Of a DNA stretch of 64,000 nt, positions 2,203 to 45,903 are shown in pieces. The stretch's first letter is position 1. Each line of letters starts with the position of its first letter. The position numbers were made by a program, and so were the translations under genes. This DNA is from Pseudomonadota bacterium (GTDB taxonomy: Bacteria; Pseudomonadota; Alphaproteobacteria; SHVP01), in assembly GCA_027622715.1 (NCBI GenBank), contig JAQBYN010000001.1, positions 1 to 64,000 on the forward strand, given 5' to 3'. Below the pieces are notes generated by a model. The model searched no databases, had not been told where the DNA came from, and saw only the letters and a program-made list of their open reading frames with translations.

Positions 2203-3921
2203 ATGTCCGAAACAAACATCGACGCGGAGATGCGCTTTTGGCGCACCCCGGCGGGCGTCCGGCGCGCCTATGCTGATGGCCGGTTCGGCCAGCTTCATTA
2301 CCGGATCGCGCGTCCCACAGGCGCGACCGACAAAACGCCGCTTATTTGTTTCCACCTCAGCCCCAACTCGGGCCGGGTCTATGCCTTATGGCTTGCAGAA
2401 ATGTCCAAGGACCGGATTGCGGTCGCGCCGGATACGCCGGGTTTTGGTGAATCCGACGCGCCGCCCAGCGCCCCTGACATTGCCGACTATGCGGCCGCGA
2501 TGGGCGAGCTCATCGATCACCTCGGTTTCGATCAGGTTGACGTCATGGGTTATCACACCGGGTCGCGGACCTGCGTTGAGATCGCCCAGCAGCGGCCTCA
2601 ACAAATCAGGCGCATCGTTTTGGTTTCCGCCCCGATCTATTCCAAGGAAGAACTGGAAGTCCAATACAAGACCATGGGGACACCGAGTTCGGATGAGACA
2701 ACCGACGACGGGAGCCATCTGCAACGCAAATGGGATGGTCACCTTCGTTGGAAGGATCGCGCCGCACCGCTGGTGTTTGTCCACCGTGAAGTCTGCGAGG
2801 CGTTGCGCGGCGGCAACAAAGCGTGGTGGGGCCATCATGCAGCGTTCCGCCTGCAGCACGCGGAGCACTTGCCCAACGTCAAACAACCGGTCTTGGCGTT
2901 GTGCCCGAACGACGACCTGCGGGTGCCGACTCTGCGCGCGAAGGAATACATTCAAAACGGACGCGTGCATGAGTTGCCGGACTATGCGCACGGCATGTTG
3001 GACGTACACACCACTGAGGTCGCGAGCGTGGTGCGTGACTTCCTCGATGGTCCGGCCGCCGACATTGGGACAACGCAAAGCAGACCAACCCCGCCGCTGC
3101 CGCCAACGCCGCCTAAACGGGCTATCCGGCGCGCCTTCATGGACGGCCCCGACGGCGGGCAGGTGCACTACCGAACCGCGATGCCATCCGACCCGGCGCA
3201 GACGCCCCTTATGTGCCTGCACATGAGCCCCAATTCGGGGCGCATCTATGAAGCAATCTTGCAAGACATGGGGACGGACCGGGTTGCGGTCGCGCCGGAC
3301 ATGCCGGGCTTTGGTGAATCGGATGCGCCGAATGCGCCGCCGGAAATTGCCGACTATGCGCGGATCGCCGGGCATGTCGCCGACAATCTCGGTCTGAAAA
3401 GGATCGATGTGATGGGTTATCACACCGGCTCGGAGACCTGCATTGAGCTGGCGTTGCAGCGGCCCGATCTTGTGCGGCGGATCGTGCAGATCTCCTGCCC
3501 TGTGTTTACCGACGCAGAACTTGAAGAACTGCGACGCGGCTATGCGGCGGCGCCGTTGATGGCGGACGGCTCGCATCTCGTGGGCAAGTGGCGCCACATG
3601 CTGCCGTTCTATGGGCCCAAGGTGCCGCGCGAGGTGATGGCGCGAAACTTTGCTGAGGGATTGCGTGGTGGCCCGGTCGCGCATTGGGGACACCGCGCCG
3701 CGTTCAACTACGATTTGCGCGAGTCGCTGCCCCGTGTGACGCAACCGATTCTGGTGATCAATCCGAACGATGACTTGGTCGAGCAGACGCCGCGCGGATT
3801 ACCGCTGATGAAGAACGGACGCGTGTTTGAGATCAAAGATCGAGGACACGGGTTCATCGACACCATGACGGCCGAGTTCGCAAAAACTTTGCGCGGATTC
3901 CTCGACGTCGAAACCGTGTGA
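2203..3921 (+). CDS. Tandem double-domain alpha/beta-hydrolase-fold protein 1 (His at nucleophile elbow)
   Basis: A 572-residue fusion of two alpha/beta-hydrolase domains (about 1-285 and 306-572) joined by a Pro/Thr-rich linker at 293-304. The halves are clearly homologous: both contain FHLSPNSGR or LHMSPNSGR, PDxPGFGESDAP, VMGYHTGS and a late NDDL/HG pair. In a normal hydrolase the elbow is G-x-Ser-x-G. Here it is G-Y-His-T-G at His118 and His407, while the acid (Asp237/238, Asp523/524) and His (263, 549) positions are kept. The start at 2203 has GGGAGGACA upstream; an earlier in-frame ATG at 2140 lacks such a site. The gene is followed after 7 bp by a paralogue with the same layout. Reaction unknown. 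Confidence 0.92.
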   Translation: MSETNIDAEMRFWRTPAGVRRAYADGRFGQLHYRIARPTGATDKTPLICFHLSPNSGRVYALWLAEMSKDRIAVAPDTPGFGESDAPPSAPDIADYAAAMGELIDHLGFDQVDVMGYHTGSRTCVEIAQQRPQQIRRIVLVSAPIYSKEELEVQYKTMGTPSSDETTDDGSHLQRKWDGHLRWKDRAAPLVFVHREVCEALRGGNKAWWGHHAAFRLQHAEHLPNVKQPVLALCPNDDLRVPTLRAKEYIQNGRVHELPDYAHGMLDVHTTEVASVVRDFLDGPAADIGTTQSRPTPPLPPTPPKRAIRRAFMDGPDGGQVHYRTAMPSDPAQTPLMCLHMSPNSGRIYEAILQDMGTDRVAVAPDMPGFGESDAPNAPPEIADYARIAGHVADNLGLKRIDVMGYHTGSETCIELALQRPDLVRRIVQISCPVFTDAELEELRRGYAAAPLMADGSHLVGKWRHMLPFYGPKVPREVMARNFAEGLRGGPVAHWGHRAAFNYDLRESLPRVTQPILVINPNDDLVEQTPRGLPLMKNGRVFEIKDRGHGFIDTMTAEFAKTLRGFLDVETV

Positions 3922-3928
3922 GGACTCC

Positions 3929-5632
3929 ATGACAAACGACGCGATGAAAAACTGGCGAACGCCCGACGGCGTGCGCCGCGGCTTTGCCGACAGCCGTTAC
4001 GGACAAATTCATTATCGGATCGCGCGGCCAAGCGAGCCGAAGCAAATCCCCCTGATTTGCTTTCACCTGAGCCCCGGGTCGAGCCGGATGTATGGGCAGT
4101 TTCTGCAGCGCATGGGCGTGGACCGGGTGGCGATTGCCGCCGATTCTATTGGGTTCGGCGAAAGCTCCCCGCCGCCCGCGCCCAAAGAAATCGAGGATTT
4201 CGCGCAATGCATGGGCGACTTGTTGGATTCGCTGGGGATCGGCGACGTCGACGCAATGGGCATGCACACAGGCTCGGAGGTCGCGGTCGAACTAGCGCGA
4301 CAACGGCCCGAACAGGTCCGCCGCTTGGTTCTGATCTCGGCGCCGGTGTTTAGCGACGAAGAACTGGATGCCTTCCGCACCGAGTATCACGGGGTTCCCC
4401 TCGCGCCCGACGGCAGCCACCTTAAGATTCGATGGGACATGCACTGGCATTGGCGCGGACCCGGCGTCGGACCCGACCTGATCCAGCGCGAGATATCGGA
4501 GTCGCTTCGCGCCGGCGAAAAATACGAGTGGGGTCACCGGGCGGCGTTTAACTACCCGTTCGGTAAACGCTTGAGCGAAGTCAGCCAGCCGATCCTCGTC
4601 CTCAACACCGAGGACGACCTTGTCGAGCAGACCCGGCGCGCGGGACCGTTGATGCAGAACGGGCGCATTGTGGAATTACCCAAAGCGGACTACGGCCACG
4701 GGATGTTCGACATCCGTCCCGACGAGATCGCCGCGATCGTGCGGGAGTTTCTCGACGACGACGGGATCGACAACGACGCAATCAATCCCGACGACGCGGG
4801 CAAAACGACCATCGCCTCACCGGCGAGTGCGGCGACATTCGTGCGCCGCGCGTTTACCGATAGCCGGTGGGGCCAGCTGCATTATCGCGGCATTCACCCG
4901 CCCGAAGCCGAACGAACCCGGCGGCCGCTGATCTGTTTTCACGCCAGCCCAAGATCGGGCAAAGCATTTGTCAATTTGATGAAAGCCGTCGGGACGGATC
5001 GGATCGTCCTCGCGCCCGACACGCCGGGCTTTGGCGAAAGCGAGCCGCCATCCGAACCCGTCGAGATCGCCGATTTGGCCGACGTCATGGCGGATTTCGT
5101 CATGAAGCAAGGCTTTGACGAGGTCGACGTGTTCGGCTTTCACACCGGTAGCGAGGTCGCGACTGAGCTGTGGCACAAGATGGGCAAGATGGTGAAACAC
5201 ATCGTCATGTATTCCGCCCCCATCTTTTCCTACGAAGAACTCGCCGGGTTCCGCGCGCGCTACACCCCGGTCACCTTCGGCGAGGACGGCATGCACAACG
5301 TCACGCGGTGGCAGTTTTTCTGGCCGTGGTTGGGGCCGGATCAACCGATCGAAAACTACGCCGATGCATTCAATGAAACGCTGCGCTGGGGACCCGCCTA
5401 TTCGTGGGGGCACCGGGCCGCGTTCAACTATCCGATGGCCAAGCGGCTAAAGCAGGTGAACTGCCCGGTGCTGGTGCTCAATCCCGAGGATGATCTGTAC
5501 GAGCAGTCCAAACGGGCCGCCGAGGTCATCCAAAAAGGTCGCGTCCACGACTTGCCGGGGTTCGGCCACGGCATGCTCGACACGCGGACGCAGGAGATTG
5601 CGGCGATCGTACGCGAGTTTCTTGAGACCTGA
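3929..5632 (+). CDS. Tandem double-domain alpha/beta-hydrolase-fold protein 2 (His at nucleophile elbow)
   Basis: A 567-residue paralogue of the preceding protein, with two hydrolase-fold halves (about 1-277 and 303-567) and an acidic linker. The elbow motifs are GMHTG (His113) and GFHTG (His405), again with no serine. Asp229/230 with His257, and Asp521/522 with His547, fill the remaining triad positions. The halves share WGHRAAFNYP with each other and with protein 1. It starts 7 bp after the previous stop, with TGAGGA ahead of the ATG, so the two genes are almost certainly co-transcribed and may form a complex. Substrate unknown. Confidence 0.92.
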   Translation: MTNDAMKNWRTPDGVRRGFADSRYGQIHYRIARPSEPKQIPLICFHLSPGSSRMYGQFLQRMGVDRVAIAADSIGFGESSPPPAPKEIEDFAQCMGDLLDSLGIGDVDAMGMHTGSEVAVELARQRPEQVRRLVLISAPVFSDEELDAFRTEYHGVPLAPDGSHLKIRWDMHWHWRGPGVGPDLIQREISESLRAGEKYEWGHRAAFNYPFGKRLSEVSQPILVLNTEDDLVEQTRRAGPLMQNGRIVELPKADYGHGMFDIRPDEIAAIVREFLDDDGIDNDAINPDDAGKTTIASPASAATFVRRAFTDSRWGQLHYRGIHPPEAERTRRPLICFHASPRSGKAFVNLMKAVGTDRIVLAPDTPGFGESEPPSEPVEIADLADVMADFVMKQGFDEVDVFGFHTGSEVATELWHKMGKMVKHIVMYSAPIFSYEELAGFRARYTPVTFGEDGMHNVTRWQFFWPWLGPDQPIENYADAFNETLRWGPAYSWGHRAAFNYPMAKRLKQVNCPVLVLNPEDDLYEQSKRAAEVIQKGRVHDLPGFGHGMLDTRTQEIAAIVREFLET

Positions 5633-5633
5633 G

Positions 5634-5846
5634 TTATTTACCGCGGCTCACGAACCGGTCGCGCAAATCGATCAGCCCGGCATAGAGCAGCGCGCCCACG
5701 GCACCGCCGGCGAAGTAAGCAATTCCGCTGACGACAATGTTGTCTTCGGGGAGAATGCCGCGCGCCTGGATGACAGCGACGACAACGATCCCCAGCAGAA
5801 TGAAGACGTTAAGCCAAATGTTGAAACGCGGCCGATCTGTGCTCAT
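5634..5846 (-). CDS. Small two-helix membrane protein
   Basis: A 70-residue protein with two predicted membrane helices: NIWLNVFILLGIVVVAVIQA at about 9-28, and a Gly/Ala-rich helix at about 38-60. A basic tail (RDRFVSRGK) follows. It is convergent with the tandem hydrolase gene, and the two stop codons nearly touch. The family is not recognised. The hydrophobic pattern with flanking charges supports a real gene, but its small size keeps confidence moderate. Confidence 0.6.
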   Translation of the reverse strand: MSTDRPRFNIWLNVFILLGIVVVAVIQARGILPEDNIVVSGIAYFAGGAVGALLYAGLIDLRDRFVSRGK

Positions 5847-5900
5847 CGGTTTCCCCAGCGGGTTGGCGCGCCTGTCGCGCGCGACACCCCTTCCCTATGG

Positions 5901-6164
5901 TCAGTCGAAGACGGATGCAAGCTTGCCGCCTAGACTGTCATCGCCCTGCTTGGCGCGCTTGCGGACGACATGCCTGAGAAACCGGGCCGTCGTGCGGTAA
6001 AAACGACGCTTTCCGGGCTCGACATTGTCCAACATGCTACGGGTGTGAAGATGCTCGATTAGCACAACGACCTCGGCCTGACGGCGCGACCAGGCCAATG
6101 CGACGAAGTCATCCAACAGTTTGAGATCGCCTTCGACGCGTTCGTGTCCCGGCTCAATAAACAT
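5901..6164 (-). CDS. Small hypothetical protein
   Basis: An 87-residue, soluble-looking and mixed-charge protein. The ATG at 6164 is preceded by GGGGAA at a suitable distance; the frame extends 17 codons further upstream without such a site. No domain is recognised. The middle (LDDFVALAWSRRQAEVVVL) could form helix-strand structure, and the C-terminal half is strongly basic. It lies between a small membrane-protein gene and the divergently oriented monooxygenase gene. It may be a genuine short gene or a chance frame. Confidence 0.45.
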   Translation of the reverse strand: MFIEPGHERVEGDLKLLDDFVALAWSRRQAEVVVLIEHLHTRSMLDNVEPGKRRFYRTTARFLRHVVRKRAKQGDDSLGGKLASVFD

Positions 6165-6351
6165 ATTGTTCCCCGGCTGGTTGGCCCGATCGTTGCGGCG
6201 GAAATACACGGACAAAATACACGAACGATCGCAGCATTTCTTGTGTTGCCCTATGGATGGGCGATAACGGGAATTGGATCGCGTTTGTTCGCTGGTCTTC
6301 TCGAACTGTGGCGGCCTCCCCCTGCCCGCCTAATTGAGTTAGAACCGGGCT

Positions 6352-7443
6352 ATGGAGTTGGGCATCTTTCTCATGCCAGCGAGCGACCCATCGCGGCCGC
6401 TGGCCGAGGTCATCGACTGGAACATCGAGGTGATCGCGCGCGCCGACGCGTTGGGCTATGCGGAGGCGTGGGTGGGCCAACACATTACGACGCCGTGGGA
6501 GCCGTTGCCCTCGCCGCAGCAGATCATTGCCGGGGCGATCGGGCGCACCGAAAAGATCCGTTTGGGAACCGGCGTTGAAGTCCTGTACCAACAGCACCCG
6601 CTGCGTCTTGCAGCCGAGTTGATCCAACTGGACCATATGAGCCGGGGCCGCCTGATGTTCGGATTTGGCGCGGGCGGGACGGTGACCGACGGACAGCTGT
6701 ATGGGTTGGACTTTGCCAAGGGTGAGAATCAGGCGCGGTCGCGCGAAGCGTTAGAGATCATTTTGCAAGCGTGGTCGCCCGACGGGCCTGGCGACTTCGA
6801 TGGCCAATTTTGGACGACGCGGCGCCCGAAGTATTCCGATAACTACTATTGGCACCTCAAACCCTACGCGCCGGCCGAACCGCGCATCGCGTTTGCAGGG
6901 TTCATGCCCAAATCGGGATCGCTGATGATCGCGGGTGAAAAGGGCTACATCCCGATGAGTTTCAACGTGGCGCCGCAGCATGTGTCGGTCCACTGGCCGT
7001 CGATCGAAGAAGGCGCGGCACGCAGCGGGCGCACCCCGTCACGCAGCAACTGGCGGCAGATTCGCGAGGTCTATGTCGCCGATAGCGCCGCCGAGGCACG
7101 GCGCGCGGTGGTGGACGGCTTTGCCGGTACATTTTGGAATACGTATTTCAGCGTCATCGCCGAACGACTTGGTATCGCCGATATGTTCCGCCGCGACGGC
7201 GCGCCGCCGGGCGCCAAAGTTGACGCGGCCTATCTTGTCGATCACGGCACATGGTTTGTCGGCACGCCCGACACCGTTGCCGATCAAATCGTCGATCAGT
7301 ACCGGCAGACCGGCGGCTTTGGTGTGCTGCTGCAGATCGGCTTTGATTACGCCGACGCTGGCGCGCGGGAGGGCTGGTTTCACTCAATGGAATTGCTGGC
7401 CACGGAGGTCATGCCACGGGTCAACCGGCTGATTGGCGCGTAG
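6352..7443 (+). CDS. Luciferase-like flavin-dependent monooxygenase (LLM class)
   Basis: A 363-residue TIM-barrel protein of the bacterial luciferase superfamily. These enzymes use FMNH2 or F420 with O2 to hydroxylate or cleave small organic substrates. Family signatures are the N-terminal strand LGIFLMPA, AEAWVGQHIT, IRLGTGVEV.YQQHPLRLA, LDHMSRGRLMFGFGAG and the C-terminal VGTPDTVADQIVDQY. Length is normal. It lies between the tandem hydrolase pair and a methyltransferase gene, all on the same strand. A separate flavin reductase is not visible nearby. Its substrate cannot be read from the sequence. Confidence 0.9.
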   Translation: MELGIFLMPASDPSRPLAEVIDWNIEVIARADALGYAEAWVGQHITTPWEPLPSPQQIIAGAIGRTEKIRLGTGVEVLYQQHPLRLAAELIQLDHMSRGRLMFGFGAGGTVTDGQLYGLDFAKGENQARSREALEIILQAWSPDGPGDFDGQFWTTRRPKYSDNYYWHLKPYAPAEPRIAFAGFMPKSGSLMIAGEKGYIPMSFNVAPQHVSVHWPSIEEGAARSGRTPSRSNWRQIREVYVADSAAEARRAVVDGFAGTFWNTYFSVIAERLGIADMFRRDGAPPGAKVDAAYLVDHGTWFVGTPDTVADQIVDQYRQTGGFGVLLQIGFDYADAGAREGWFHSMELLATEVMPRVNRLIGA

Positions 7444-7557
7444 GCCTTAATCCAGCCGTATTGTGGGCACGACGGTCGCCGCGGCGCCTTTTCAAGCGTT
7501 GGTCAAGACGACATACTGCTAGGCAGACCATGCCAGCCGTCTGGGAGGACCCCGAAA

Positions 7558-8751
7558 ATGACCAAATACGTCCACCACGAGATGAAGGTCGCACCGACCC
7601 CAGAAGAAGCCGCGCGCCAAACCTTTATGTCGAGCATGCGCATGTACGTGCTGCTCGATATGGCGAACGGCATGCGCACCGTCTACGACACCGAGGTCGC
7701 GCCAAAATTTGAACGCAAGAACAAGCGCGCGCCGCGAGACGGCACAGAAGTTCATCGCGCCCTGAAGAAGGACACGTTCTTTAAGTTCTATTCGTCGATG
7801 CGCTGCAACGCGCAGGAGATGGTGTTCCGTTCGATCCTGCCGACGGTGGAACGCAGCCAAGATGCGCTGAATAAGAAGGCGAAAGTCCTGAGCCGGTCGA
7901 AAAAGGCTGCGGGTACGATCGAAACCGATCCGTCTTTCGTGGTGCCGCGCAGCGTGGCCGCGATCGACGTGCACCGGATGCCCGGCAACTACGACACCGA
8001 ATACGGCCCCGACGATGTGACGCAAGGCGCGGTCTACGACAACGGCATTTCCGTTTTCAGCATGGGGTTCTTCGGAGACAACCTAGACGACATCGGCAGT
8101 TCTATTTCGCTGTTCATCAAGAACAAGTATCCGAAGTTCGCGCCCAAGCGCATCTTGGATATGGGCTGCACCATTGGCCACAACACCGTGCCCTGGGCCA
8201 AGATCTATCCAAAGTCTGAGGTCCATGCGGTCGATGTGAGCGCGCCGGCGGTTCGCTACGGCCACGCGCGCGCCCAGTCTGATGGTGTTGCGGTTCATTT
8301 CCACCAACAGAACGCGGAACACACAAACTTTGAGGACGGCAGTTTCGATCTGATTTTCTCGTCGATGTTCCTGCATGAGGTGCCCAAGAAAGGCATCAAG
8401 AAAATATTCAAGGAAGCGCACCGGTTGCTTAAGCCCGGCGGGCTGATGCTGCATATGGAATTGCCGCCCAACAAGATGTTGGGGGCCTATGACAGCTTCT
8501 ATTTGGATTGGGACAGCTACTACAACAAAGAGCCGTTCTACAAACCGTTCCGCGATTTGGATCCGGAGGTGGTCTCGGAAAACGCCGGTTTCGCCAAGAA
8601 CAAGTTCGTGCAGTTCATCATTCCCAGCGTCGGCCAATACGGCGAAAAGGCGGTGAAGGACTCGGTGAAGAAACAGACCGGCAAGGCCGACGATCAAACC
8701 GGACGTTTTGCCGCCGGCATCCATTGGTATTGTTTCGGGGCCTGGAAGTGA
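7558..8751 (+). CDS. SAM-dependent methyltransferase, paralogue 1 of 3, with extra N-terminal domain
   Basis: A 397-residue protein. Residues about 195-330 form a class I methyltransferase core (RILDMGCTIGHNT at 198-210, VHAVDVSAP, FDLIFSSMFLHEVP, LLKPGGLMLHME). Residues 1-190 form an extra domain shared with the proteins at 18620-19732 and 30132-31295, including VAPKF at 47-51 and HRMPGNY at 139-145. The glycine loop is GCTIGH instead of the usual GxGxG. GGGAGG precedes the ATG. The next gene overlaps its stop by four bases (GTGA), implying translational coupling. The acceptor is unknown. Confidence 0.9.
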   Translation: MTKYVHHEMKVAPTPEEAARQTFMSSMRMYVLLDMANGMRTVYDTEVAPKFERKNKRAPRDGTEVHRALKKDTFFKFYSSMRCNAQEMVFRSILPTVERSQDALNKKAKVLSRSKKAAGTIETDPSFVVPRSVAAIDVHRMPGNYDTEYGPDDVTQGAVYDNGISVFSMGFFGDNLDDIGSSISLFIKNKYPKFAPKRILDMGCTIGHNTVPWAKIYPKSEVHAVDVSAPAVRYGHARAQSDGVAVHFHQQNAEHTNFEDGSFDLIFSSMFLHEVPKKGIKKIFKEAHRLLKPGGLMLHMELPPNKMLGAYDSFYLDWDSYYNKEPFYKPFRDLDPEVVSENAGFAKNKFVQFIIPSVGQYGEKAVKDSVKKQTGKADDQTGRFAAGIHWYCFGAWK

Positions 8752-9092
8752 CTGCGGCCGCTGAAAAGAAGCCGCTGCGCTACAGCGTCCGCGGCAAGAA
8801 TACCCAGTTCTTTTCGGGTGAAGGGGTCGACGAGTTGGTGTCGATCACCATGGCACTGGCGCAGGAGTTGTGGGTCGTGAAGGAGCGGCTCGCGGCTTTT
8901 GAGGCGGTGGCCACCAAGAAGAAGGTCTTCACCGCGAAGGAAATTGAGGGTTTCAAGTTCACGCCGGCGCAACGCGCGAAGCTTGATGCCGAGAGCCAAG
9001 CCTTCATCGACCGCGTGTTTTTCGTCTTGCGTGAACGCGTCGAGGGCCTGGCCGCCGACCCGGACGAGCCGCCCGCGCCCAAAGAACCATGA
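8748..9092 (+). CDS. Small hypothetical protein coupled to the methyltransferase gene
   Basis: A 114-residue soluble protein beginning with GTG inside the methyltransferase stop (GTGA overlap) and ending in an ATGA overlap with the next gene. It begins with a short basic stretch, then has an amphipathic helical middle (ELVSITMALAQELWVVKERL) and an acidic Pro-rich tail. The spacing within the operon makes it very likely real. I do not recognise the family. It could be an accessory subunit of the methyltransferase or of the ABM-type protein that follows (inference). Confidence 0.75.
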   Translation: MTAAAEKKPLRYSVRGKNTQFFSGEGVDELVSITMALAQELWVVKERLAAFEAVATKKKVFTAKEIEGFKFTPAQRAKLDAESQAFIDRVFFVLRERVEGLAADPDEPPAPKEP

Positions 9093-9388
9093 TCGTCATT
9101 GCTGGCACGGTGCGGGTGCCGCCGGAAAAGATCGACGGCGCGCGACCCCACATGGAGAAGATGCTCAACGCATCGCGCGCCGAGGCGGGTTGTATTTCCT
9201 ACAGCTATGCGCAGGACGTTCTTGACCCCAGCTTGATCCACGTTGCCGAAGTCTGGGAAAGCGACGATGCGCTGAAAATGCATTTTGAGTCGTCGCATAT
9301 GAAGGAATGGCGCGCGGCGGGCGCGACCTTCGGGATCAGCGACCGCAATCTAACGCGTTACGCCGTGACGGACGCCACGCCGCTGTAG
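9089..9388 (+). CDS. ABM-domain (antibiotic biosynthesis monooxygenase-like) protein
   Basis: A 99-residue dimeric ferredoxin-like-fold protein of the ABM/YgiN type. Visible signatures are VIAGTVRVPPEK, MEKMLNASRAEAGCISYSY (the usual ARxExGxxxY pattern), IHVAEVWESDDALKMHFES and HMKEW. Members oxygenate quinols or aromatic polyketides without cofactor, or degrade haem; some have no known activity. The start overlaps the preceding stop by four bases, tying it to the methyltransferase operon. Confidence 0.9.
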   Translation: MIVIAGTVRVPPEKIDGARPHMEKMLNASRAEAGCISYSYAQDVLDPSLIHVAEVWESDDALKMHFESSHMKEWRAAGATFGISDRNLTRYAVTDATPL

Positions 9389-9519
9389 ACGACCAACGCG
9401 ACGGCTTGGGCGTATGCCCTCCCCTTCCCTTTTGGCACGGCTGGCGGTCATGACGGTGGATCGCCGCGCACCTGGCGCGAGGCCGCGTTATGATGGCGGA
9501 CAAACAAGGGGAGGCCGGC

Positions 9520-11217
9520 ATGGGCGACACAACAATCCGCAGTCATTTTCTTACCGTGGGGACACGGCGGGTGCATTACCGGCGGGCCGGCTCGGGGCCT
9601 CCGGTGGTGATGCTGCACGCCTCACCGAGCTGGGCACGGGCGATCGACCCATTCACGCGAGTCTTTGCCGAGCGTTTTACCGCGATCGCGCTCGACAGCC
9701 CGGGCTATGGCCATTCCGATCTACTGGACATGGTGCAGCCCGAAATCCCCGATTTTGCTGAAGCGTTGAAAGACACGTTGGATGCGTTGGGCATCGACAA
9801 ATGCGCCATTTGGGGGTCGCACACCGGTGCCTCGATCGCGATGGAATTCACGGTGCGCTACCCTGAGCGGGTCTCGGTGTTCGTGATCGATGGGTATCCG
9901 GCGTACGAGGATGCCTACCGCGCCGATATGACGAAGTATTACCTGCCGCCGTATGAGCCAAAGTGGGATGCATCGCACTTGCTCAACACATGGCACAAGT
10001 TTCGCGAGCAGTTCATTTTTTCGCCGACATTCCGCTGGCACCGCGAAAACCGCTCAAGCACGGCGGCGCCGCCGCTGGCCGACCTGATGCAAGACATGGT
10101 GCTGCCGCGGTTTATTACCGGCGAGGCCTACAACATCGGTTACTCGGCAGTGTTCCGTTACGCGGGACTGGTGCCCATCGGCAAATTGGCGGTGCCAACA
10201 TGTTTTGGCGCGCGGACCGGCGATTCCTTGATCAAAGGGTTTCCATTGATTGAAACCCGCAAGGCCGAGGGTTCGTGGACTGAGGAACTGCCGCGCGATA
10301 TCCGCCAAGCGGCGTTGCGCTACCGCGAGATACTGGAAATGCACCCGGCACCCGGCGATGCCCCACCTGCGCCGGTACCGGTGAGCGTCGCGGGAAAGCT
10401 AAACCGCAGCTATGTCGATCTCGATTTCGGCCAGATGGCGGTGAGTGCCGCGGGACCCGAAGACGGGATACCACTGGTTTTGTTGCCGCAATTGCCGGGC
10501 GACGTGACGCTAGATGCGGGCTTTATGCTGGAATTGGCCAAGCTGGGCCGCCGCGTTATTGCGTTGGATATGCCCGGTAACGGCGATTCGGACGACTGGG
10601 CGGCGGCACCGTCGATCGCGGGCTACGCCGCGGTGCTGCTCCAGGCACTTGATAAACTTGGATTGGCGAAGGTCGATCTGCTGGGCCACCAAGGCGGCGC
10701 GTCGGTCGCGACCGAGTTCGTGCTGAATCATCGAAACCGGGTGCGCAATCTTTTGTTGTTTGCGCCGTTATCTATGCCTGACGAAGTACGCCTTGCCCTG
10801 GCACCACACTATGCGCCGCCAATTGAGCCCAAGGGCGACGGCTCACATCTCATCAGTCTGTGGTTTGCGTTACGCAACGAGCAGCTGTTCTGGCCGTGGT
10901 ACAACGAATCGATCGAGGCAATCCGACGCATCGAACCGGAAATCGATCCCAAGCTTTTGTCGCGCAAGATAACCGGCATCCTCAAGCACTACCGCAATTA
11001 CCACAAAGTCTGGCAGGCCGTGTTCGATTACCCGGTACGCGACCGCTTGCAGATGATCCAAGTGCGCACGCTGGTTGCGTCGATCGAGGATGATCCCTTT
11101 CACCGCTTTGCGCCGGAAGCCGCAGCGATGGTGCCGGACGGCGATTTCCAAATGGTCGATTTTCAGAACGACGCCATCGCCAAAGCGGTTGACGCGTTTC
11201 TGGTCGGCGGATCGTGA
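9520..11217 (+). CDS. Tandem double-domain alpha/beta-hydrolase-fold protein 3 (His and Gln elbows)
   Basis: A 565-residue fusion of two alpha/beta-hydrolase-fold halves (about 1-275 and 290-565), from a subfamily different from the pair at 2203-5632. The first-half elbow is G-S-His-T-G (His101), and the second-half elbow is G-H-Gln-G-G (Gln391). No clear C-terminal catalytic HG dipeptide is seen in either half, so it looks more degenerate than proteins 1 and 2. The lipase-like early motifs MLHASPS and LDSPGYGHSD are kept. GGGGAGG five bases before the ATG at 9520 decides the start. It overlaps the next gene by GTGA. Confidence 0.92.
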   Translation: MGDTTIRSHFLTVGTRRVHYRRAGSGPPVVMLHASPSWARAIDPFTRVFAERFTAIALDSPGYGHSDLLDMVQPEIPDFAEALKDTLDALGIDKCAIWGSHTGASIAMEFTVRYPERVSVFVIDGYPAYEDAYRADMTKYYLPPYEPKWDASHLLNTWHKFREQFIFSPTFRWHRENRSSTAAPPLADLMQDMVLPRFITGEAYNIGYSAVFRYAGLVPIGKLAVPTCFGARTGDSLIKGFPLIETRKAEGSWTEELPRDIRQAALRYREILEMHPAPGDAPPAPVPVSVAGKLNRSYVDLDFGQMAVSAAGPEDGIPLVLLPQLPGDVTLDAGFMLELAKLGRRVIALDMPGNGDSDDWAAAPSIAGYAAVLLQALDKLGLAKVDLLGHQGGASVATEFVLNHRNRVRNLLLFAPLSMPDEVRLALAPHYAPPIEPKGDGSHLISLWFALRNEQLFWPWYNESIEAIRRIEPEIDPKLLSRKITGILKHYRNYHKVWQAVFDYPVRDRLQMIQVRTLVASIEDDPFHRFAPEAAAMVPDGDFQMVDFQNDAIAKAVDAFLVGGS

Positions 11218-12884
11218 CAATCGCCCGGCATTTCGTCACCGTCGGTACCCGGCAAGTGCACTATCGTCGCGCCGGCAACGGCGCGCCGGTTGTCCTGCTG
11301 CACGCCAGTCCGAGTTCGTCGTGGGCGTTGACGACGTTTGTCGAACGGTTCGGCCAGGACTACGCAGCGATCGCCTTGGATACGCCGGGCTATGGTTTGT
11401 CGGATCCGCTCGCGGTCGAGTCGCCGGAAATCGGCGACTATGCCGAAGCCTTGGCTGAAACACTGGACGCGCTTGGGATCGAGCAGTGCGCCTTATTTGG
11501 ATCGCACACCGGCGCGACGGTGGCGATCGAATTCGCCCGGCGTTATCCGGCGCGGGTTTCGGTGGCGTTGTTCGACGGTTATCCCGCTTGGCCCGATCAT
11601 GAACGCGCCAATATGCTGCGCGAGTATTTGCCGCCGTGGCAGCCGGTGTGGACGGGCCTGCATCTAGTTGAGTTCTTTCTGCGCTACCGCGAGATGAGCA
11701 TCTACTGGCCGTGGTACGACCGGCGCAAGGCAACCCGCGCCGCAGCCGGCGGGCGCAATCTGGAGATGACCCACCGCATCACGCTGGCCGGCTTCATCGC
11801 CAGTAGCGGCTACGCCAAGGGCTATGCCGCTGTGTTCCGATATCCGGAGATTGAGGCCGTGCAAGGTTTGAGCGTGCCGACGTGTTTTGCCGGGCGGGCC
11901 GAAGATTCGTTGATCGAAGCCTTGAAGCTATTGGGCACGTTGCCTGCCGGATGCTGGCAAGAAACACTCCCGGCCGACGACGCTGGCGCGGCGCAACGCT
12001 ACGCCGAGATCATTGCGGCTCATCCGCCAACCGGCATTGCACCGCCGCCGCCCGAGACGGTCCCCGTGGCAGGCCGCATTACACGGCGCTTTGTCTCTTG
12101 GCATGGTGGCGAAATTCTGGTGCGTGAGTGTGGCCACGGCGAAGGCGCGCCGTTGGTCTTGCTGCCGCATGTGCCAGGTTCGAGCGAAACCTGCGAGCCA
12201 CTGATGCGCGCCCTGGCGGGTAGCCGCCGGGTTGTCGCACTTGATCCGCCGGGCAGCGGCGATTCGGATATGGCGGCCGTCCTTTCAGTTGACGAACAGG
12301 CCGATGCCATCGGTCAGGCTCTCACCGCGCTCGGCCTTGATACCGTTGATCTCTACGGCCACAACGGCGGGGCGTCGATCGCCGCTGCCGTTGCCACAGC
12401 GGACGAGAACAGGATACGACGGCTGATTCTAGACGCGCCACTCGCGGTACCGCTGGACGTTAGAAATGCATTGGCACCGCACTACGCGCGCCCGATTGAA
12501 ATTGAGACGGACGGCGGACACTTGCTCAAGTTGTGGCACACACTGCGCAACGAGCAACTGTACTGGCCATGGTACAACGAAGGTCTTGAGGGTGTGCGCT
12601 TCGTCGAGCCCGACACGGACCCAACACGAATGACCGTGCGGCTGATTGGAATCCTAAAGCAGCACCGGAATTATCAGGGCACTTATGCGGCGCTTTTTTC
12701 GGACGATCTCAGCAACCGTCTGCGCGGCCTCGCTTGTCCGACGCTGGTTTGTGCCGCCGAGAACGATCCGTTCGCCCGGTACTGCAACTTCGCCGCAGAT
12801 GTCATTCCCGGCGCAACACGCGCCGTCGCGCCAAGTGCGCCGGTGGACCGGGCGGTATTGATCCGCGAATTTCTGGACGCTTAA
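11214..12884 (+). CDS. Tandem double-domain alpha/beta-hydrolase-fold protein 4 (His and Asn elbows)
   Basis: A 556-residue paralogue of protein 3, starting with GTG in a four-base overlap with its stop. The halves span about 1-275 and 287-556. The elbows are G-S-His-T-G (His98) and G-H-Asn-G-G (Asn384). The halves share HYRRAG, LLHASPS, LDTPGYGLSDP and, in the C-terminal half, ALAPHYARPIE and LYWPWYNE with protein 3. The two proteins are probably made together and may form a hetero-oligomer. Classical serine hydrolysis is unlikely. Non-hydrolytic catalysis, ligand binding or His-dependent chemistry are alternatives. Confidence 0.92.
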   Translation: MTIARHFVTVGTRQVHYRRAGNGAPVVLLHASPSSSWALTTFVERFGQDYAAIALDTPGYGLSDPLAVESPEIGDYAEALAETLDALGIEQCALFGSHTGATVAIEFARRYPARVSVALFDGYPAWPDHERANMLREYLPPWQPVWTGLHLVEFFLRYREMSIYWPWYDRRKATRAAAGGRNLEMTHRITLAGFIASSGYAKGYAAVFRYPEIEAVQGLSVPTCFAGRAEDSLIEALKLLGTLPAGCWQETLPADDAGAAQRYAEIIAAHPPTGIAPPPPETVPVAGRITRRFVSWHGGEILVRECGHGEGAPLVLLPHVPGSSETCEPLMRALAGSRRVVALDPPGSGDSDMAAVLSVDEQADAIGQALTALGLDTVDLYGHNGGASIAAAVATADENRIRRLILDAPLAVPLDVRNALAPHYARPIEIETDGGHLLKLWHTLRNEQLYWPWYNEGLEGVRFVEPDTDPTRMTVRLIGILKQHRNYQGTYAALFSDDLSNRLRGLACPTLVCAAENDPFARYCNFAADVIPGATRAVAPSAPVDRAVLIREFLDA

Positions 12885-12967
12885 CGCCAGCCGACCCCGG
12901 CTCTCCATTCGCGGAGCGCCCACGGGTAATCCCGCGCGTCGCCAAGGCAACTTGCGATCCCCGGGCT

Positions 12968-13195
12968 CTATTCAGCGCAGCAGCTGGCGGCGTCTCCACC
13001 AGCCAGACGCGCCTCCTGGATCGGCGGACATGGGAGCGTCCCAAAGGAGCAGTAGACGCAGCAATCGCCCGCGTTGGGTCGCAGCACCGCGCCGCAACCC
13101 TTACAATCGTAGAAGAACTGGCATGCATCGGTCGGCATCGTTTCGGTTTCGCGATGCCCACATAAAGGGCAGGTGATTGTGGACTTTAGCTCCAC
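12968..13195 (-). CDS. GDCCVxC domain-containing protein
   Basis: A 75-residue Cys-rich protein. Two CxxC knuckles (CPLCGH and CKGCG) are followed by the hallmark GDCCVYCSFG and CPPIQ. The family is known as GDCCVxC (seleno)proteins and is often found beside mercury-resistance genes; some members carry selenocysteine, here all are Cys. The GTG at 13195 has GGAGAG upstream and gives a family-typical N-terminus. A GTG six codons earlier (13213) is possible. It is the last gene of the merT-merP group, just downstream of merP. Confidence 0.85.
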   Translation of the reverse strand: MELKSTITCPLCGHRETETMPTDACQFFYDCKGCGAVLRPNAGDCCVYCSFGTLPCPPIQEARLAGGDAASCCAE

Positions 13196-13223
13196 CAGCC
13201 GCTCTCCGTTCACCCGCGCGGGT

Positions 13224-13553
13224 CTAACTTTCTACGATCATTGCCGGATACCCGGCGTCCGCCGAGGCCCTGGCGATGTCGTTCGCCGTAGTTAGAGCCG
13301 GATCGAAAGTCACCGTTGCCGTTTTGGCCTCGCGGTCGACCTTGACCGAGCGAACACCTTCGAGCCGTTTCATCGCGCTCCTGACCGTAATCGGACAGAC
13401 AGCGCAGGTCATGTTCTCGACCAAGAAGGTGTGCGTACGCAGCGTTACTTCGTCAGCCGCTTGAGCGGTCGAGATCGGTGCCAAGCCGGTCGCGCCAAGT
13501 CCAGCGAGGCCCAACAACGCCACAAGAGACGCAATCGTCAAAGTACGTTTCAT
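13224..13553 (-). CDS. merP: Periplasmic mercuric-ion-binding protein MerP
   Basis: A 109-residue secreted heavy-metal-associated (HMA) domain protein. An N-terminal signal peptide ends near AQAADE. The metal site is NMTCAVCPITV; the two cysteines bind Hg(II) in the periplasm and pass it to the membrane protein MerT. The rest shows the beta-alpha-beta HMA fold (VRSVKVDREAKTATVTFDP and DAGYPA). It lies directly downstream of the frameshifted merT and upstream of the GDCCVxC gene. Confidence 0.92.
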   Translation of the reverse strand: MKRTLTIASLVALLGLAGLGATGLAPISTAQAADEVTLRTHTFLVENMTCAVCPITVRSAMKRLEGVRSVKVDREAKTATVTFDPALTTANDIARASADAGYPAMIVES

Positions 13554-13563
13554 CTCGTTCTCC

Positions 13564-13961
13564 CTAATATAATAGCGGCGCCCACCATTCGATCGTCATG
13601 GCGAGAACAACCAGCGGTGTGGCGGTCCATAGAGCGGATTTGGTGATTCGTGAGGATGCCGGGCGGGCGCAGAAAGAACCGTCTGCGCACGCCGGCTTCG
13701 GCCGGAAATAGACCCGCCGGAACGCCAACCCGAGAAGATCAGTGTCGCGCCGGCGAACAAAGGTTTGTAGGGCTCCAATGCCGTCAAAGTGCCGATCCAG
13801 GCACCCGACACCCCTATGGTCACAAGAACGAGGGGCACGATGCAGCACGATGAAGCGAGGATGGCGCCGATCAGACCGCCGGTCGCGAACCAGCCCGTGC
13901 GCGCGCCCGAATCGGCACCGTCAGCCGCACTATCAATGATGTTCGCGTTCGTTTGGGTCAT
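13564..13961 (-). pseudogene. merT: merT, mercuric transport protein, frameshifted
   Basis: Frame 1 (from 13961) encodes the MerT N-terminus with the SSCCIVPLVLVTIGV mercury-binding Cys pair and continues to AGATLIF near 13741. There the MerT-like sequence moves to another frame, giving GLAFRRVYFRPKPAC and ending KSALWTATPLVVLAMTIEWW at 13564. Adding one base in the ATCTTCTCGGG stretch would restore a normal protein of about 130 residues. Either the gene is inactivated by a single-base loss or this is a sequencing error. MerT normally moves Hg(II) through the inner membrane. Confidence 0.85.
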
Positions 13962-14001
13962 CCCGCGCCAATTCCATTCGACTCGACCTTGTGGCCTAGA
14001 A

Positions 14002-14032
14002 ACCCTACGGTCTGTAGTTACTACAGGATCAA
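14002..14032 (-). promoter_or_regulatory. MerR-type promoter/operator for merTP
   Basis: On the minus strand, a -35-like TTGATC (14027-14032) and a -10-like TAGGGT (14002-14007) are separated by 19 bp. This overlong spacer is the hallmark of promoters activated by MerR-family regulators through DNA distortion. Inside the spacer lies a perfect dyad CTGTAGT-A-ACTACAG (14012-14026), the likely MerR site. It sits between the divergent merT and merR genes. Confidence 0.8.
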
Positions 14033-14047
14033 GAGGTATTCGCGGAA

Positions 14048-14464
14048 ATGGCGTTCACGGCTGCGGGAGTCCCGATCAAACGCGGCGCGCTCGCGAAGCG
14101 TTCGCTTTGCAACATCGAGACGATTCGTTATTTCGAAAAGATCGGGCTGATGACCGATCCCGACCGCACCGAAGGTGGGCACAGGCTCTATCGGCCAGAA
14201 CACCAAGCCCGCCTCGCCTTCATCTTGCGGGGGCGGCAACTTGGGTTCTCTATCGACGAGTTGCGGAGTCTCTTGAGCCTCGTCGACTCGGGACACTATA
14301 CCTGCGGCGAAGTGCTCACCCTCACGTACAAACACTTGTCTATTGTCCGCGAGAAGATCGCTGACCTGCGGCGGCTGGAAACCACGCTCGCCAAGGTCGT
14401 GGGTGAATGCGCCGGAGGTCAGACGCCCGATTGCCCGATTATCGACGCGCTGCAGAGCGTTTGA
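14048..14464 (+). CDS. merR: MerR-family mercury-responsive transcriptional regulator
   Basis: A 138-residue regulator. The winged helix-turn-helix is RGALAKRSLCNIETIRYFEKIGL with GGHRLYR. A long dimerisation helix follows, and then the metal-binding cysteines in YTCGEV and ECAGGQTPDCP match the three Hg-ligand cysteines of MerR. The gene diverges from merT across an operator with the characteristic 19-bp promoter spacer. The N-terminus has about ten residues more than usual, so a later start is possible. Confidence 0.9.
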   Translation: MAFTAAGVPIKRGALAKRSLCNIETIRYFEKIGLMTDPDRTEGGHRLYRPEHQARLAFILRGRQLGFSIDELRSLLSLVDSGHYTCGEVLTLTYKHLSIVREKIADLRRLETTLAKVVGECAGGQTPDCPIIDALQSV

Positions 14465-14516
14465 TGGAGGGCGCCATTCTCCCCTCAACCGAATGAACCA
14501 AGTCGGGAGCCTGGAC

Positions 14517-15356
14517 TTAGAGGGCTGCGGGCAGCCGGCGTTTTACAAAGTCGTCAATTAGGTTGGCCATCAGCACGGGCTGGTCTTGGCTGATGCGATG
14601 GTCGCAGCCGGGCACGTCATGCGCCTCGGAGCCCGGAATCATCTCTTGTAGGCGCTTCATATTGTGCGCCGGAAAGACGTGCGACTCGACGCCGCGCATC
14701 ATCAGCGTTGGGCAGGACACCATGATGTCGTCCCACATGTCATTTTCGAGCACGCCTTCGGTGTATTGCGCCCCTTGTGGGTAATAGCGCCATTCGACCT
14801 CGCCCGTCTCGAGTTTCTTGAAGCTGTGTTCGGCGTAATGATCTTTCATATCTTGCGACCACAGGCGACTGAACGGCATCGCAGCCTTCGCCGAGTCGAA
14901 ATCGGGAAATCGATGGTTCTTGACGATCTCGTCCTTGACGTCGGCGCTGATCTTTTTGTCGAGCGATAAGCCTGGGTCGGCAACGACCAGCGCCGCCACA
15001 CGTGCGGGAAACTGCGAGGCGACGAGAAGCGCGATATTGCCGCCAGTTGCTGCGCCGACCAGAACCACTTGCGGAATTTGGAGCGAATCGAGGAATTCAA
15101 CGAGGTCCCAGACATATTCCTGGAGCACGTAGTCGCGTTCGGGATAGTCGCTGAACCCGTGGCCCCGCGCATCCGGGGCGATGAAGCGATTCGGCAGCGA
15201 ACTGGCGTCCACCATGAAGTCCCACACCCGTGCATTGGTCCGGTTTGGATGCATAAGCACAATCGGCGGGGAATCCCCGGGCCAGTCCAGATAGCTGACC
15301 CGCAAACGCGCGAGACGAATTTCCTCAGTGTCGGCGGGACTTTTGAATGTGACCAT
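14517..15356 (-). CDS. Single-domain alpha/beta-hydrolase-fold protein (Ala at nucleophile elbow)
   Basis: A 279-residue alpha/beta-hydrolase-fold protein with LMHPNRTN (oxyanion region), PDARGHGFSD and the elbow LVGAATGGN. The elbow reads G101-A-Ala103-T-G105, so the serine position is alanine. Late elements RGVESHVFP and GCDHRI match the acid and His regions. It is not a close copy of the tandem proteins, but it shows the same loss of nucleophile. It lies tail to tail with merR and diverges from the GT9 gene at 15464. Hydrolase activity is doubtful. Confidence 0.88.
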   Translation of the reverse strand: MVTFKSPADTEEIRLARLRVSYLDWPGDSPPIVLMHPNRTNARVWDFMVDASSLPNRFIAPDARGHGFSDYPERDYVLQEYVWDLVEFLDSLQIPQVVLVGAATGGNIALLVASQFPARVAALVVADPGLSLDKKISADVKDEIVKNHRFPDFDSAKAAMPFSRLWSQDMKDHYAEHSFKKLETGEVEWRYYPQGAQYTEGVLENDMWDDIMVSCPTLMMRGVESHVFPAHNMKRLQEMIPGSEAHDVPGCDHRISQDQPVLMANLIDDFVKRRLPAAL

Positions 15357-15463: not shown

Positions 15464-16402
15464 GTGGCCGACCACAAGCGCATTCTCGTCATCAAGCATA
15501 GCGCCCTGGGCGACTTCGTCATGGCGCTCGGCCCGTTTCGTGCGATCAGGACGCACCATCCGGACGCACATATCACCTTGCTGACGACGGCACCCTACGC
15601 CGACCTCGGACACGGATGCGGGTGGTTTGACGCGGTCGAGGTCGACCCTAAGCCCCACATCCTGCAATGGCGCAGCTGGCTGCGCCTGCGGCGATTTATC
15701 ATCGGTAGTGGCTTCGACCGGGTTTACGATCTGCAACACAGTAATCGGACGCACATGTATTTCCGGTTCTTCCGCCAGCCCAAGCCTGAGTGGTCGGGCA
15801 TTGCCCCGGGATGTTCTCATCCCCACCGCAATCCCAACCGCAACGTCCTGCACACGCTTGAGCGCCAGGCCGAGCAACTTGCCGCCGCCGGCATTGCGCA
15901 GACGCCGGCACCTGATCTCGATTGGTTGACCGGCAATACGACGACGTTCGGAATCGCGGGTCGGTTCGCACTTTTGGTGCCGGGCGGCGCACCGCACCGG
16001 CCTGACAAGCGGTGGCCGCCGGCACATTACGGTGCCGTTGCACGCGCCCTCGCCGATGCCGGTATCGTGCCCTTCGTGATCGGCACCCAGGCGGAGGCTG
16101 CCGAGATTCGCGCCGTGGCCGAATCCGAGCCTCGCGCGGTCGATTTGATGGGCCAAACGTCGTTCGGGCAGATCGCCGAACTGGCGCGGCACGCCAGCGT
16201 CGCGATCGGCAACGATACGGGACCGATGCACATTATCGCAGCCGCCGGTTGTGCCTCAGTCTCGTTGTTTTCCCATGCTTCAGTTCCAGCCCAGACGCAG
16301 CCGCGCGGACCCGCCGTCGTTGTGATTCAGCGCGAGTCACTGGCTGATCTCGATCCCGCGGCGGTTTTGGAGGCCGCCCAGGCCATCGCCAAGAAGACCT
16401 AG
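15464..16402 (+). CDS. Glycosyltransferase family 9 (heptosyltransferase-like)
   Basis: A 312-residue GT-B glycosyltransferase like the lipopolysaccharide core heptosyltransferases. It starts with the family motif ILVIKHSALGDFVMALGPFRAIR, has DRVYDLQHSNRT in the N-terminal half, and in the C-terminal half LVPGGAPHRPDKRWPPAHYGAVA and IGNDTGPMHIIAAAGC. The probable role is transfer of heptose or a related sugar onto lipid A core on the cytoplasmic face. It stands alone, with no other lipopolysaccharide gene in the window. The GTG start has no strong ribosome-binding site. Confidence 0.9.
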   Translation: MADHKRILVIKHSALGDFVMALGPFRAIRTHHPDAHITLLTTAPYADLGHGCGWFDAVEVDPKPHILQWRSWLRLRRFIIGSGFDRVYDLQHSNRTHMYFRFFRQPKPEWSGIAPGCSHPHRNPNRNVLHTLERQAEQLAAAGIAQTPAPDLDWLTGNTTTFGIAGRFALLVPGGAPHRPDKRWPPAHYGAVARALADAGIVPFVIGTQAEAAEIRAVAESEPRAVDLMGQTSFGQIAELARHASVAIGNDTGPMHIIAAAGCASVSLFSHASVPAQTQPRGPAVVVIQRESLADLDPAAVLEAAQAIAKKT

Positions 16403-16497: not shown

Positions 16498-17265
16498 ATG
16501 GCAACCGTGATCCAACTCTTTGCGACCGAACCGGCGAGCGACTTGCAGCGTCTGCAGCGCGAATTGGTGTTAGGCCACCATATCTTGGACCGCGAAGGCC
16601 AAGGCCTGGACATTGCTGGGCATGTCACGGCGCGCCTGCCGGGAACCGAGACCTTCTGGTCGAACCGTTTCCGCCTTGGCTTTGATGAGGCAGCCCCGGC
16701 CGAATTGCATGAGGTCGACTTGAAGCTCAAGGTTTTGTCGGGACTCGGCGAAATTAGCCCGGCGCTCGATCTTCACGCGGCGGTCTATGCGCGGCGGCCC
16801 GACGTCAACGCGGTCGTCCACACCCACGCGATGAATGCGATGGCGCTATCCTCAATTGGCGTGCCGCTGGCGATGATCGACCAGCAGGCCTCGATATTTT
16901 TTGAAGACATCGCCTTCTTCAACGAGCACCACGGGGTGTTCTTAGAGGGTGAAGGCGAAACCGATCTGATTGCGGCGGCGCTGGGTCAGAACCGCGCCGC
17001 GATTCTGAAGAATCACGGCATTGTGGTGGTCGGCACCAGTGTTCAAGAGGCCGTGGTTGGCGCGCTTGTGCTGGAGGGCGCCGCCAGTGTTCAGGTTCGC
17101 GCAATGGCAGCGGGAACGCTCGATCCGTTGCCGGACGCGGCGGCACGCCAATCCAAGAGCTTTCTCGGGCAGGCCGATATTTTCAACTGGAAGTTCGACT
17201 ATTACGCCCGCCGGGTTCTGCGGGAACGCCCGGACCTGCGCGAGGCCTTGGAAACCCAGGGCTAA
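16498..17265 (+). CDS. Class II aldolase/adducin family protein
   Basis: A 255-residue protein of the fuculose-phosphate-aldolase/adducin fold. Zn-ligand-type histidines appear in DLHAAVYARRPDVNAVVHTH and KNHGIVVVG. The family includes sugar-phosphate aldolases, 3-oxo-4-phosphate decarboxylases and hydroxy-acid lyases. Length is normal. It precedes an AhpD-like gene on the same strand. The substrate is not deducible; the catabolic neighbourhood points to cleavage or decarboxylation of a hydroxy-oxo-acid (inference). Confidence 0.9.
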   Translation: MATVIQLFATEPASDLQRLQRELVLGHHILDREGQGLDIAGHVTARLPGTETFWSNRFRLGFDEAAPAELHEVDLKLKVLSGLGEISPALDLHAAVYARRPDVNAVVHTHAMNAMALSSIGVPLAMIDQQASIFFEDIAFFNEHHGVFLEGEGETDLIAAALGQNRAAILKNHGIVVVGTSVQEAVVGALVLEGAASVQVRAMAAGTLDPLPDAAARQSKSFLGQADIFNWKFDYYARRVLRERPDLREALETQG

Positions 17266-18582: not shown

Positions 18583-18619
18583 AGCTCGACCAGCCAGTGC
18601 CGGCCCGTTTTGCGCCGAG

Positions 18620-20465: not shown

Positions 20466-20475
20466 GGCGTACCGA

Positions 20476-27247: not shown

Positions 27248-27254
27248 TGCCGGC

Positions 27255-36266: not shown

Positions 36267-36270
36267 GACG

Positions 36271-37909: not shown

Positions 37910-38022
37910 CCTGACGTCCTCCCCTAGTCGTTTGTTGTTTGGATTTGGCCGTAGAATCGGGTCGCGTACCGGCAATGTCAAGCAAACGGGCGAGCCGCAG
38001 ATGGCGGGCCGCGTGGCCTCGG

Positions 38023-45851: not shown

Positions 45852-45903
45852 CCGAAGGTCCGGGCCTGCTGCTACGATCCCACCACCGGTGAGGAGCAAC
45901 ACC

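Follow-up and report, generated by a model that had tools for sequence, protein, structure and literature searches.

A histidine-elbow family of alpha/beta-hydrolase-fold proteins, with a putative role in the breakdown of nitrogen heterocycles, in an alphaproteobacterium

The alpha/beta-hydrolase (ABH) fold is among the largest enzyme superfamilies and its chemistry is set by the residue at the nucleophile elbow. What, then, is the function of ABH-fold proteins in which the usual elbow residues are absent? The question is raised by five ABH-fold genes, encoding P1 to P5, located in the first 64 kb (the window; positions 1 to 64,000, forward strand) of the 216-kb contig JAQBYN010000001.1 in the 3.1-Mb genome of an alphaproteobacterium of the SHVP01 lineage (GenBank assembly GCA_027622715.1). 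Ser, Cys or Asp is found at the elbow of none of their nine domains (0/9), the residues observed being His, Gln, Asn or Ala. Sequence comparison indicates that P1 to P4 belong to a large, conserved and apparently unnamed family with a GxHTG elbow, distributed across several bacterial orders. With moderate confidence, we interpret them as a distinct ABH-fold enzyme clade in which the elbow His would act as a general base or acid in a pathway leading from an N-heterocycle to an alkylated cyclic imide. The five genes are:

2203–3921, + strand: P1, tandem ABH-fold protein, class I (572 aa; two stretches matching Pfam Abhydrolase_1/6)
3929–5632, + strand: P2, tandem ABH-fold protein, class I (567 aa; two Abhydrolase_1/6 stretches)
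9490–11217, + strand: P3, tandem ABH-fold protein, class II (575 aa; two Abhydrolase_1/6 stretches)
11214–12884, + strand: P4, tandem ABH-fold protein, class II (556 aa; two Abhydrolase_1/6 stretches)
14517–15356, − strand: P5, single-domain ABH-fold protein of a separate family (one Pfam Abhydrolase stretch)

The nine elbow motifs listed in the initial annotation of this region, six GxHTG, GHQGG, GHNGG and GAATG, are exact, and their codons were located. In P1, whose ATG at 2203 is preceded by a GGAGG ribosome-binding site, the elbow residues are His118 (codon 2554–2556) and His407 (3421–3423), the two halves carry HLSP and HMSP motifs, and domain B begins at about residue 307. P2 has His113 (4265–4267) and His405 (5141–5143). 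The beta7 acid is retained in P1 to P4, and the catalytic His following beta8 appears to be kept in each half of P1 and P2, as had been noted for the first two proteins, and to be missing from P3 and P4. P3 has an A-domain elbow at His111 (9820–9822) and a degenerate B-domain with Gln401 (10690–10692), from which the HxSP motif has been lost. P4 combines elbow His98 (11505–11507), Ser32 and Asp231 in its A-domain with a degenerate B-domain carrying Asn384 (12363–12365). P5, whose position beside P4 is conserved in further genera of the taxonomic family, has Ala103 (15048–15050) and retains a beta8-type His.

The proteins belong to the ABH superfamily, having the beta5–tight turn–alphaC core together with an Abhydrolase profile match. 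In alignments with PDB structures GYHTG falls on GWSLG and GSHTG on GNSMG, placing His on the catalytic Ser. The AlphaFold model of P4 domain A has a strand at 92–97, His98 and a helix at 99–110 (mean predicted local distance difference test score, pLDDT, 92.8), and that of P1 has strands at 112–117 and 401–406 followed by His118 and His407 (mean pLDDT 77). Inspected at the elbow, as the initial annotation had proposed, both models place His, and not a Ser close by, at the beta5–alphaC turn, the predicted nucleophile position. A Ser nucleophile hidden at the x of GxHTG was rejected as unlikely because this position is highly variable (Y, S, T, F, D, M, N, R, H, A, V, L).

The best PDB folds for the GxHTG proteins are ordinary ABH enzymes, fluoroacetate dehalogenase among them (template modelling score ~0.68), and the family shares with canonical members (PF00561/PF12697; nearest solved structures fluoroacetate dehalogenase RPA1163, Est1 and BphD/HsaD) the fold, the beta5–elbow–alphaC unit, the DxxGxGxS segment and the beta7 acid. 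It differs in having His in place of the Ser, Asp or Cys elbow and HxSP in place of the HG motif, and in often missing the beta8 His; profile matches are at the superfamily level only (best E 1e-22). Identities as haloalkane dehalogenase, epoxide hydrolase, C–C hydrolase, RutD or PcaD were rejected, all profile matches being far under the curated cut-offs, and the Asp elbow of haloalkane dehalogenases and epoxide hydrolases is absent from every domain.

The nine domains, taken as one set in the initial annotation, split into three kinds by tree and orthologue comparison, a single family being ruled out by the C-domain clade and the separate Ala-elbow family of P5. The GxHTG kind, recognised by an elbow His-Thr, HxSP after beta3 and the beta7 acid within an A6-profile match, comprises P1A, P1B, P2A, P2B, P3A and P4A, and excludes P3B, P4B and P5. 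The GHQGG and GHNGG C-domains of P3 and P4 form a degenerate sister clade in the tree, in which the elbow His, HxSP and usually the first His are lost. P5 represents the third kind; its orthologues retain GAATGGN and a His close to the C-terminus, and two further Ala-elbow copies, GGATG and GTATG, are encoded in the same genome. Two tandem types are distinguished by the tree, class I (P1, P2), consisting of related halves that are both apparently intact, and class II (P3, P4), in which an intact N-domain is fused to a member of the degenerate C-domain clade. Sphingomonads, and a single genome from another proteobacterial class, have class II proteins as well. Variation at the elbow itself is observed in nine domains of sphingomonad tandem proteins (loci L024–L037, L061), where ATHTS replaces both glycines and His-Thr stays. 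A single-domain Leu-elbow clade (GTLSG/GTLAG; loci L063–L068 and L071, from Burkholderiales, Rhodocyclaceae and Lysobacterales), in which Ala replaces Ser32, has lost both residues and kept the remaining frame.

The family is abundant in its own genome, which encodes 15 tandem proteins, with an N-domain GxHTG elbow in 14 of the 15 and GTKTG in one, as well as several single-domain GxHTG proteins; most other ABH proteins of this genome retain Ser (GTSLG, GTSMG, GTSRG, GWSMG and others). Matches were found in all nine other genomes of the taxonomic family searched (6–35 each) and, among same-class genomes outside it, in 1 of 31 at E ≤ 1e-30. A thin sample of the phylum gave matches at E ≤ 1e-40 in 6 of 398 genomes, own included, a lower bound because six candidates alone were scored per genome. 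The elbow is G[STY]HTG in 39 of 49 loci, from Sphingomonadales, Roseomonas and other Rhodospirillales, Comamonadaceae and other Burkholderiales, and Rhodobacterales, while a single-domain protein on a Streptomyces plasmid has GHHTG. The expectation that orthologues keep the motif is borne out in relatives. Literature searches on His elbows, GxHTG-like motifs, the neighbouring gene module described below and bacterial maleimide breakdown, in which most subscription papers were not covered, returned nothing relevant and no description of a His-elbow ABH group, in keeping with the initial view that the group had not been described. A review of the superfamily covers elbows with Ser, Asp or Cys as well as dyads that do without the serine, and lists no His elbow (PMC11878206). 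The serine-less ABH carboxy-lyases and CGI-58-type proteins resemble the GxHTG proteins in lacking an elbow nucleophile, but have an acid–His dyad or an unknown site (PMC11878206).

Conservation was measured over 143 distinct His-elbow domains, which derive from several bacterial orders (P4 numbering). His98, Asp56, Gly59 and Gly61 are 100% conserved, Thr99, His30 and Pro33 99%, and position 231 is Asp or Glu in all 141 domains that could be aligned there. By a spacing criterion, 83 of the 143 lack a His at the distance expected for beta8, among them every sphingomonad, Roseomonas and Comamonadaceae single-domain protein inspected. Chance or an annotation artefact as the origin of the His elbow was ruled out, because most other ABH proteins of the genome keep Ser and the His is constant in the 143 domains.

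The frequent loss of the beta8 His, together with retention of the acid and HxSP, favours the elbow His as a base over a nucleophile or a residue for mere binding. From these patterns we infer that the catalytic His has been relocated from the beta8 loop to the elbow, the old His having gone from many members. The elbow His would serve as general base or acid, aided by the beta7 acid and by two hydroxyls, that of Ser/Thr32 in the HxSP loop and that of Thr99 at the former oxyanion site, and no acyl-enzyme would be formed on the elbow. Both halves of the class I proteins would apparently be active, whereas in class II an active N-domain would be paired with a degenerate C-domain. The GxHTG proteins would probably carry out one or more C–C or C–N bond-breaking or deprotonation steps.

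The initial annotation had offered non-hydrolytic catalysis, ligand binding or His-nucleophile chemistry; as judged from sequence, general-base catalysis is favoured, the nucleophile is less likely and mere binding is disfavoured. An elbow His that forms a covalent N-acyl (or N-alkyl) adduct with the substrate would suit the modelled placement of His exactly at the nucleophile position, but many members have no second His for its activation and precedent for the ABH fold was not found in the literature searched, making it highly improbable. Non-catalytic function, with the fold serving as a receptor or as a partner of neighbouring enzymes and the His binding a ligand, would account for the degenerate C-domains and for 15 tandem copies with diverged lids in one genome, and the fold does include inactive domains, Arb2 being an example (PMC11878206). 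We regard it as unlikely, however, as His98, Thr99, HxSP and the acid are very tightly conserved across bacterial orders, and the genes are located in catabolic operons, not beside regulators.

Ser/Thr32 is present in 139 of the 143 His-elbow domains versus 8 of 50 domains without the His, an association of His98 with Ser32 that is highly significant when domains are counted individually (Fisher p = 1e-29). This raises the alternative of a relocated triad, in which the elbow His and the beta7 Asp would activate Ser/Thr32 of the HxSP loop as nucleophile, and the proteins would still be hydrolases, with a Ser-His-Asp set in which Ser and His have traded positions within the fold. It is consistent with the loss of Ser32 from both the Leu-elbow clade and the His-less C-domains, and with the near invariance of the acid. 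The independent changes on the tree are too few, however: only four supported independent pairs were obtained (p = 1), and the association is not significant once relatedness is counted, which leaves the Ser32 nucleophile as a rival reading. In addition, Ser/Thr32 is absent from some His-elbow members (L017, L070, L023) and still present in Lys-elbow copies. A relocated triad is considered quite unlikely.

The genomic setting was examined for indications of the reaction. Besides P1 to P5, the window contains:

486–1151, − strand: small membrane-like protein, no Pfam match; lies near GxHTG genes in sphingomonads and within the taxonomic family
1267–2097, + strand: short-chain dehydrogenase/reductase (SDR) family oxidoreductase
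6352–7443, + strand: luciferase-like (LLM) flavin monooxygenase
7558–8751, + strand: class I S-adenosylmethionine (SAM) methyltransferase, MT1
16498–17265, + strand: class II aldolase/adducin family protein
17351–17926, + strand: carboxymuconolactone decarboxylase (CMD) family protein
18199–18582, + strand: SnoaL-like protein
18620–19732, − strand: class I SAM methyltransferase of the MT1 family, MT2
19848–20636, − strand: UbiX-like flavoprotein; true start probably inside the open reading frame
20476–21336, − strand: two-domain SnoaL-like protein
21880–22770, + strand: isocitrate lyase/phosphoenolpyruvate (PEP) mutase family lyase; closest PDB entries methylisocitrate lyase, petal death protein and 2,3-dimethylmalate lyase
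23884–25464, + strand: flavin adenine dinucleotide (FAD)-linked, VAO-type oxidase
27159–28807, + strand: two-subunit coenzyme A (CoA) transferase
28804–29997, + strand: CaiB/BaiF (family III) CoA transferase
30132–31295, + strand: class I SAM methyltransferase of the same family as MT1 and MT2, MT3
35301–37197, − strand: pair of polysaccharide-deacetylase-family proteins, PuuE allantoinase-like; candidate cyclic amide/imide hydrolases
37235–37981, − strand: isochorismatase-type amidase; closest PDB entry N-carbamoylsarcosine amidohydrolase
45889–46725, + strand: Asp/Glu/hydantoin racemase family protein

The paralogues MT1, MT2 and MT3 share an uncharacterised N-terminal region of ~180 residues, and their family accompanies GxHTG genes in other bacteria. 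Between P4 and P5 (12885–14516) lie a MerR gene (14048–14464, +) and a MerT gene (13596–13961, −) whose Pfam match spans the first half only; as P4 and P5 are almost adjacent in a sister species, this stretch resembles an inserted segment in which a mercury-transport gene has decayed. Unexpectedly, several genera of the family retain a glycosyltransferase family 9 gene (15464–16402 in the window) within the catabolic cluster. A tRNA-Ser (aga) predicted by ARAGORN at 18551–18628 overlaps the end of the SnoaL-like gene and is probably a false call.

The block from 486 to 46,722 (~46 kb) has a syntenic counterpart in another species of the genus, at 72–95% identity for most genes and 68% for P4, and shows partial synteny with three further genera. 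At external loci with a GxHTG gene, most of which are from related sphingomonads and thus non-independent, the neighbours are the FAD-linked oxidase (20–21 loci), the SAM methyltransferase family of MT1 (13), a VOC protein (13), PuuE-like proteins (9–10), the isocitrate lyase/PEP mutase-type lyase (8–10), CaiB (8), SDR (7–9), the small membrane-like protein (7) and the isochorismatase-type amidase (6). FAD oxidase, methyltransferase, VOC, DUF3108, amidase, PuuE-like, LeuCD-like and lyase genes occur near GxHTG genes across several groups, namely sphingomonads, a Comamonas, an Azospirillum and another class. The gene order in Comamonas endophytica is GxHTG gene, amidase, PuuE-like, PuuE-like, and on the Streptomyces plasmid an LLM gene follows the GxHTG gene. 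Plasmid pJE1 of Sphingomonas sp. JE1, for which no paper was found in the literature searched, carries the recurrent neighbours together with two LeuCD pairs, HMG-CoA lyase, a HapK/RedY-like protein, a TonB receptor and hydantoinase A/B proteins. On an Antarctobacter plasmid (L020, 1882–6834) a GxHTG gene and a linked methyltransferase gene stand behind two pyridoxal-phosphate-dependent decarboxylase-like genes and a gene for a 76-aa protein, a setting that may be biosynthetic rather than catabolic.

Part of this neighbourhood constitutes a putative cyclic-imide module, represented in the window by the PuuE-like pair, the isochorismatase-type amidase and the isocitrate lyase/PEP mutase-type lyase; its LeuCD part is found inside the cluster in two other genera of the same family and on pJE1. 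These genes, which make up a conserved module, match the families of PuuE allantoinase, isochorismatase-type amidases, the LeuCD and DmdAB hydratases, and the 2,3-dimethylmalate and methylisocitrate lyases, but the equivalog cut-off for a named function was not reached where tested, except by LeuCD at the subfamily level. Dimethylmaleate hydratase and dimethylmalate lyase provide the analogy for individual steps. By this analogy the module fits the conversion, in the order we infer, of a cyclic imide to an amide acid, an alkylmaleate, an alkylmalate and finally a 2-oxoacid plus a short acid. The amidase and PuuE-like pair, often with the lyase and LeuCD, recurs in many families, mostly without a GxHTG gene, as at loci L146, L148, L149, L154, L157–L159 and L162, and is thus a self-standing module.

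Combined with the recurring neighbours, the conserved pathway around the GxHTG genes probably degrades N-containing ring compounds, the substrate being putative. Upstream of the module, the GxHTG proteins would work together with the FAD oxidase, the methyltransferases and the LLM enzyme, converting an N-heterocycle to an alkylated cyclic imide, which would then be handled by the PuuE-like hydrolases, the isochorismatase-type amidase, a LeuCD-like hydratase and the alkylmalate-type lyase.

The resemblance of the cluster to N-heterocycle breakdown bears on a further alternative, a cofactor-free oxygenase like HOD or AqdC, in which a deprotonated N-heterocycle and O2 would react in the oxyanion pocket and the elbow residue would tune the site. 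HOD-type dioxygenases show that the ABH fold works without an elbow nucleophile, which is dispensable and in some is replaced by Ala (PMC10548524). HOD, QDO and AqdC share with the GxHTG proteins an N-heterocycle setting and with P5 an Ala elbow, which P5 combines with a retained His. GxHTG proteins differ from them in the elbow His and often in having no beta8 His. HOD needs the beta8 His and the acid, whereas this His is missing from P3, P4 and all single-domain members inspected; the HOD/AqdC signature (Ser or Ala elbow, beta8 His and acid) is not found in the GxHTG domains. P5 has no close HOD match and no HOD structure is among its best 60 PDB matches. Such an oxygenase is decidedly unlikely.

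Several points weigh against the elbow His as a general base or acid in this pathway, in addition to the disappearance of the His98–Ser32 association on the tree and the non-independence of most external loci. In a typical triad geometry a gap of 1–2 Angstrom may keep the elbow His from reaching the acid. C-domains that have lost the His retain this acid too, so that it may be structural. Among solved structures the PDB search found no close relative (best profile E 1e-22). Finally, as the module often occurs without a GxHTG gene, the ABH step would be upstream or optional.

Which N-heterocycle might be involved is suggested by the accompanying genes. Alkylmaleimides are breakdown products of tetrapyrroles, and the HapK family takes its name from prodiginine genes; these two links make pyrrole compounds a lead and not a result. 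The HapK/RedY-like protein, hydantoinases, PuuE-like hydrolases, LeuCD and the alkylmalate-type lyase point that way. A fuller version is improbable: a whole class of ABH-fold enzymes would have remodelled its active site about the elbow His, possibly with Ser32 of HxSP as a moved nucleophile, and would serve an undescribed bacterial route from pyrrole-derived compounds, for example linear tetrapyrroles of chlorophyll or heme origin, through alkylmaleimides to central metabolism.

As read from their sequences, the GxHTG proteins may be enzymes with a chemistry undescribed so far for this fold, and their automatic annotation as 'alpha/beta hydrolase' is probably wrong on mechanism. A His-elbow branch that extends over several orders and has reached 15 tandem copies within one genome would offer a clean natural test of changes in the chemistry of the fold. 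The linked module offers a concrete and testable route for the catabolism of cyclic imides, about whose fate in soil and water little is known, and the amidase/PuuE-like/lyase/LeuCD module lacking GxHTG genes is worth separate study as such a route. If the substrate is a tetrapyrrole fragment, the pathway would bear on the destination of chlorophyll nitrogen and carbon.

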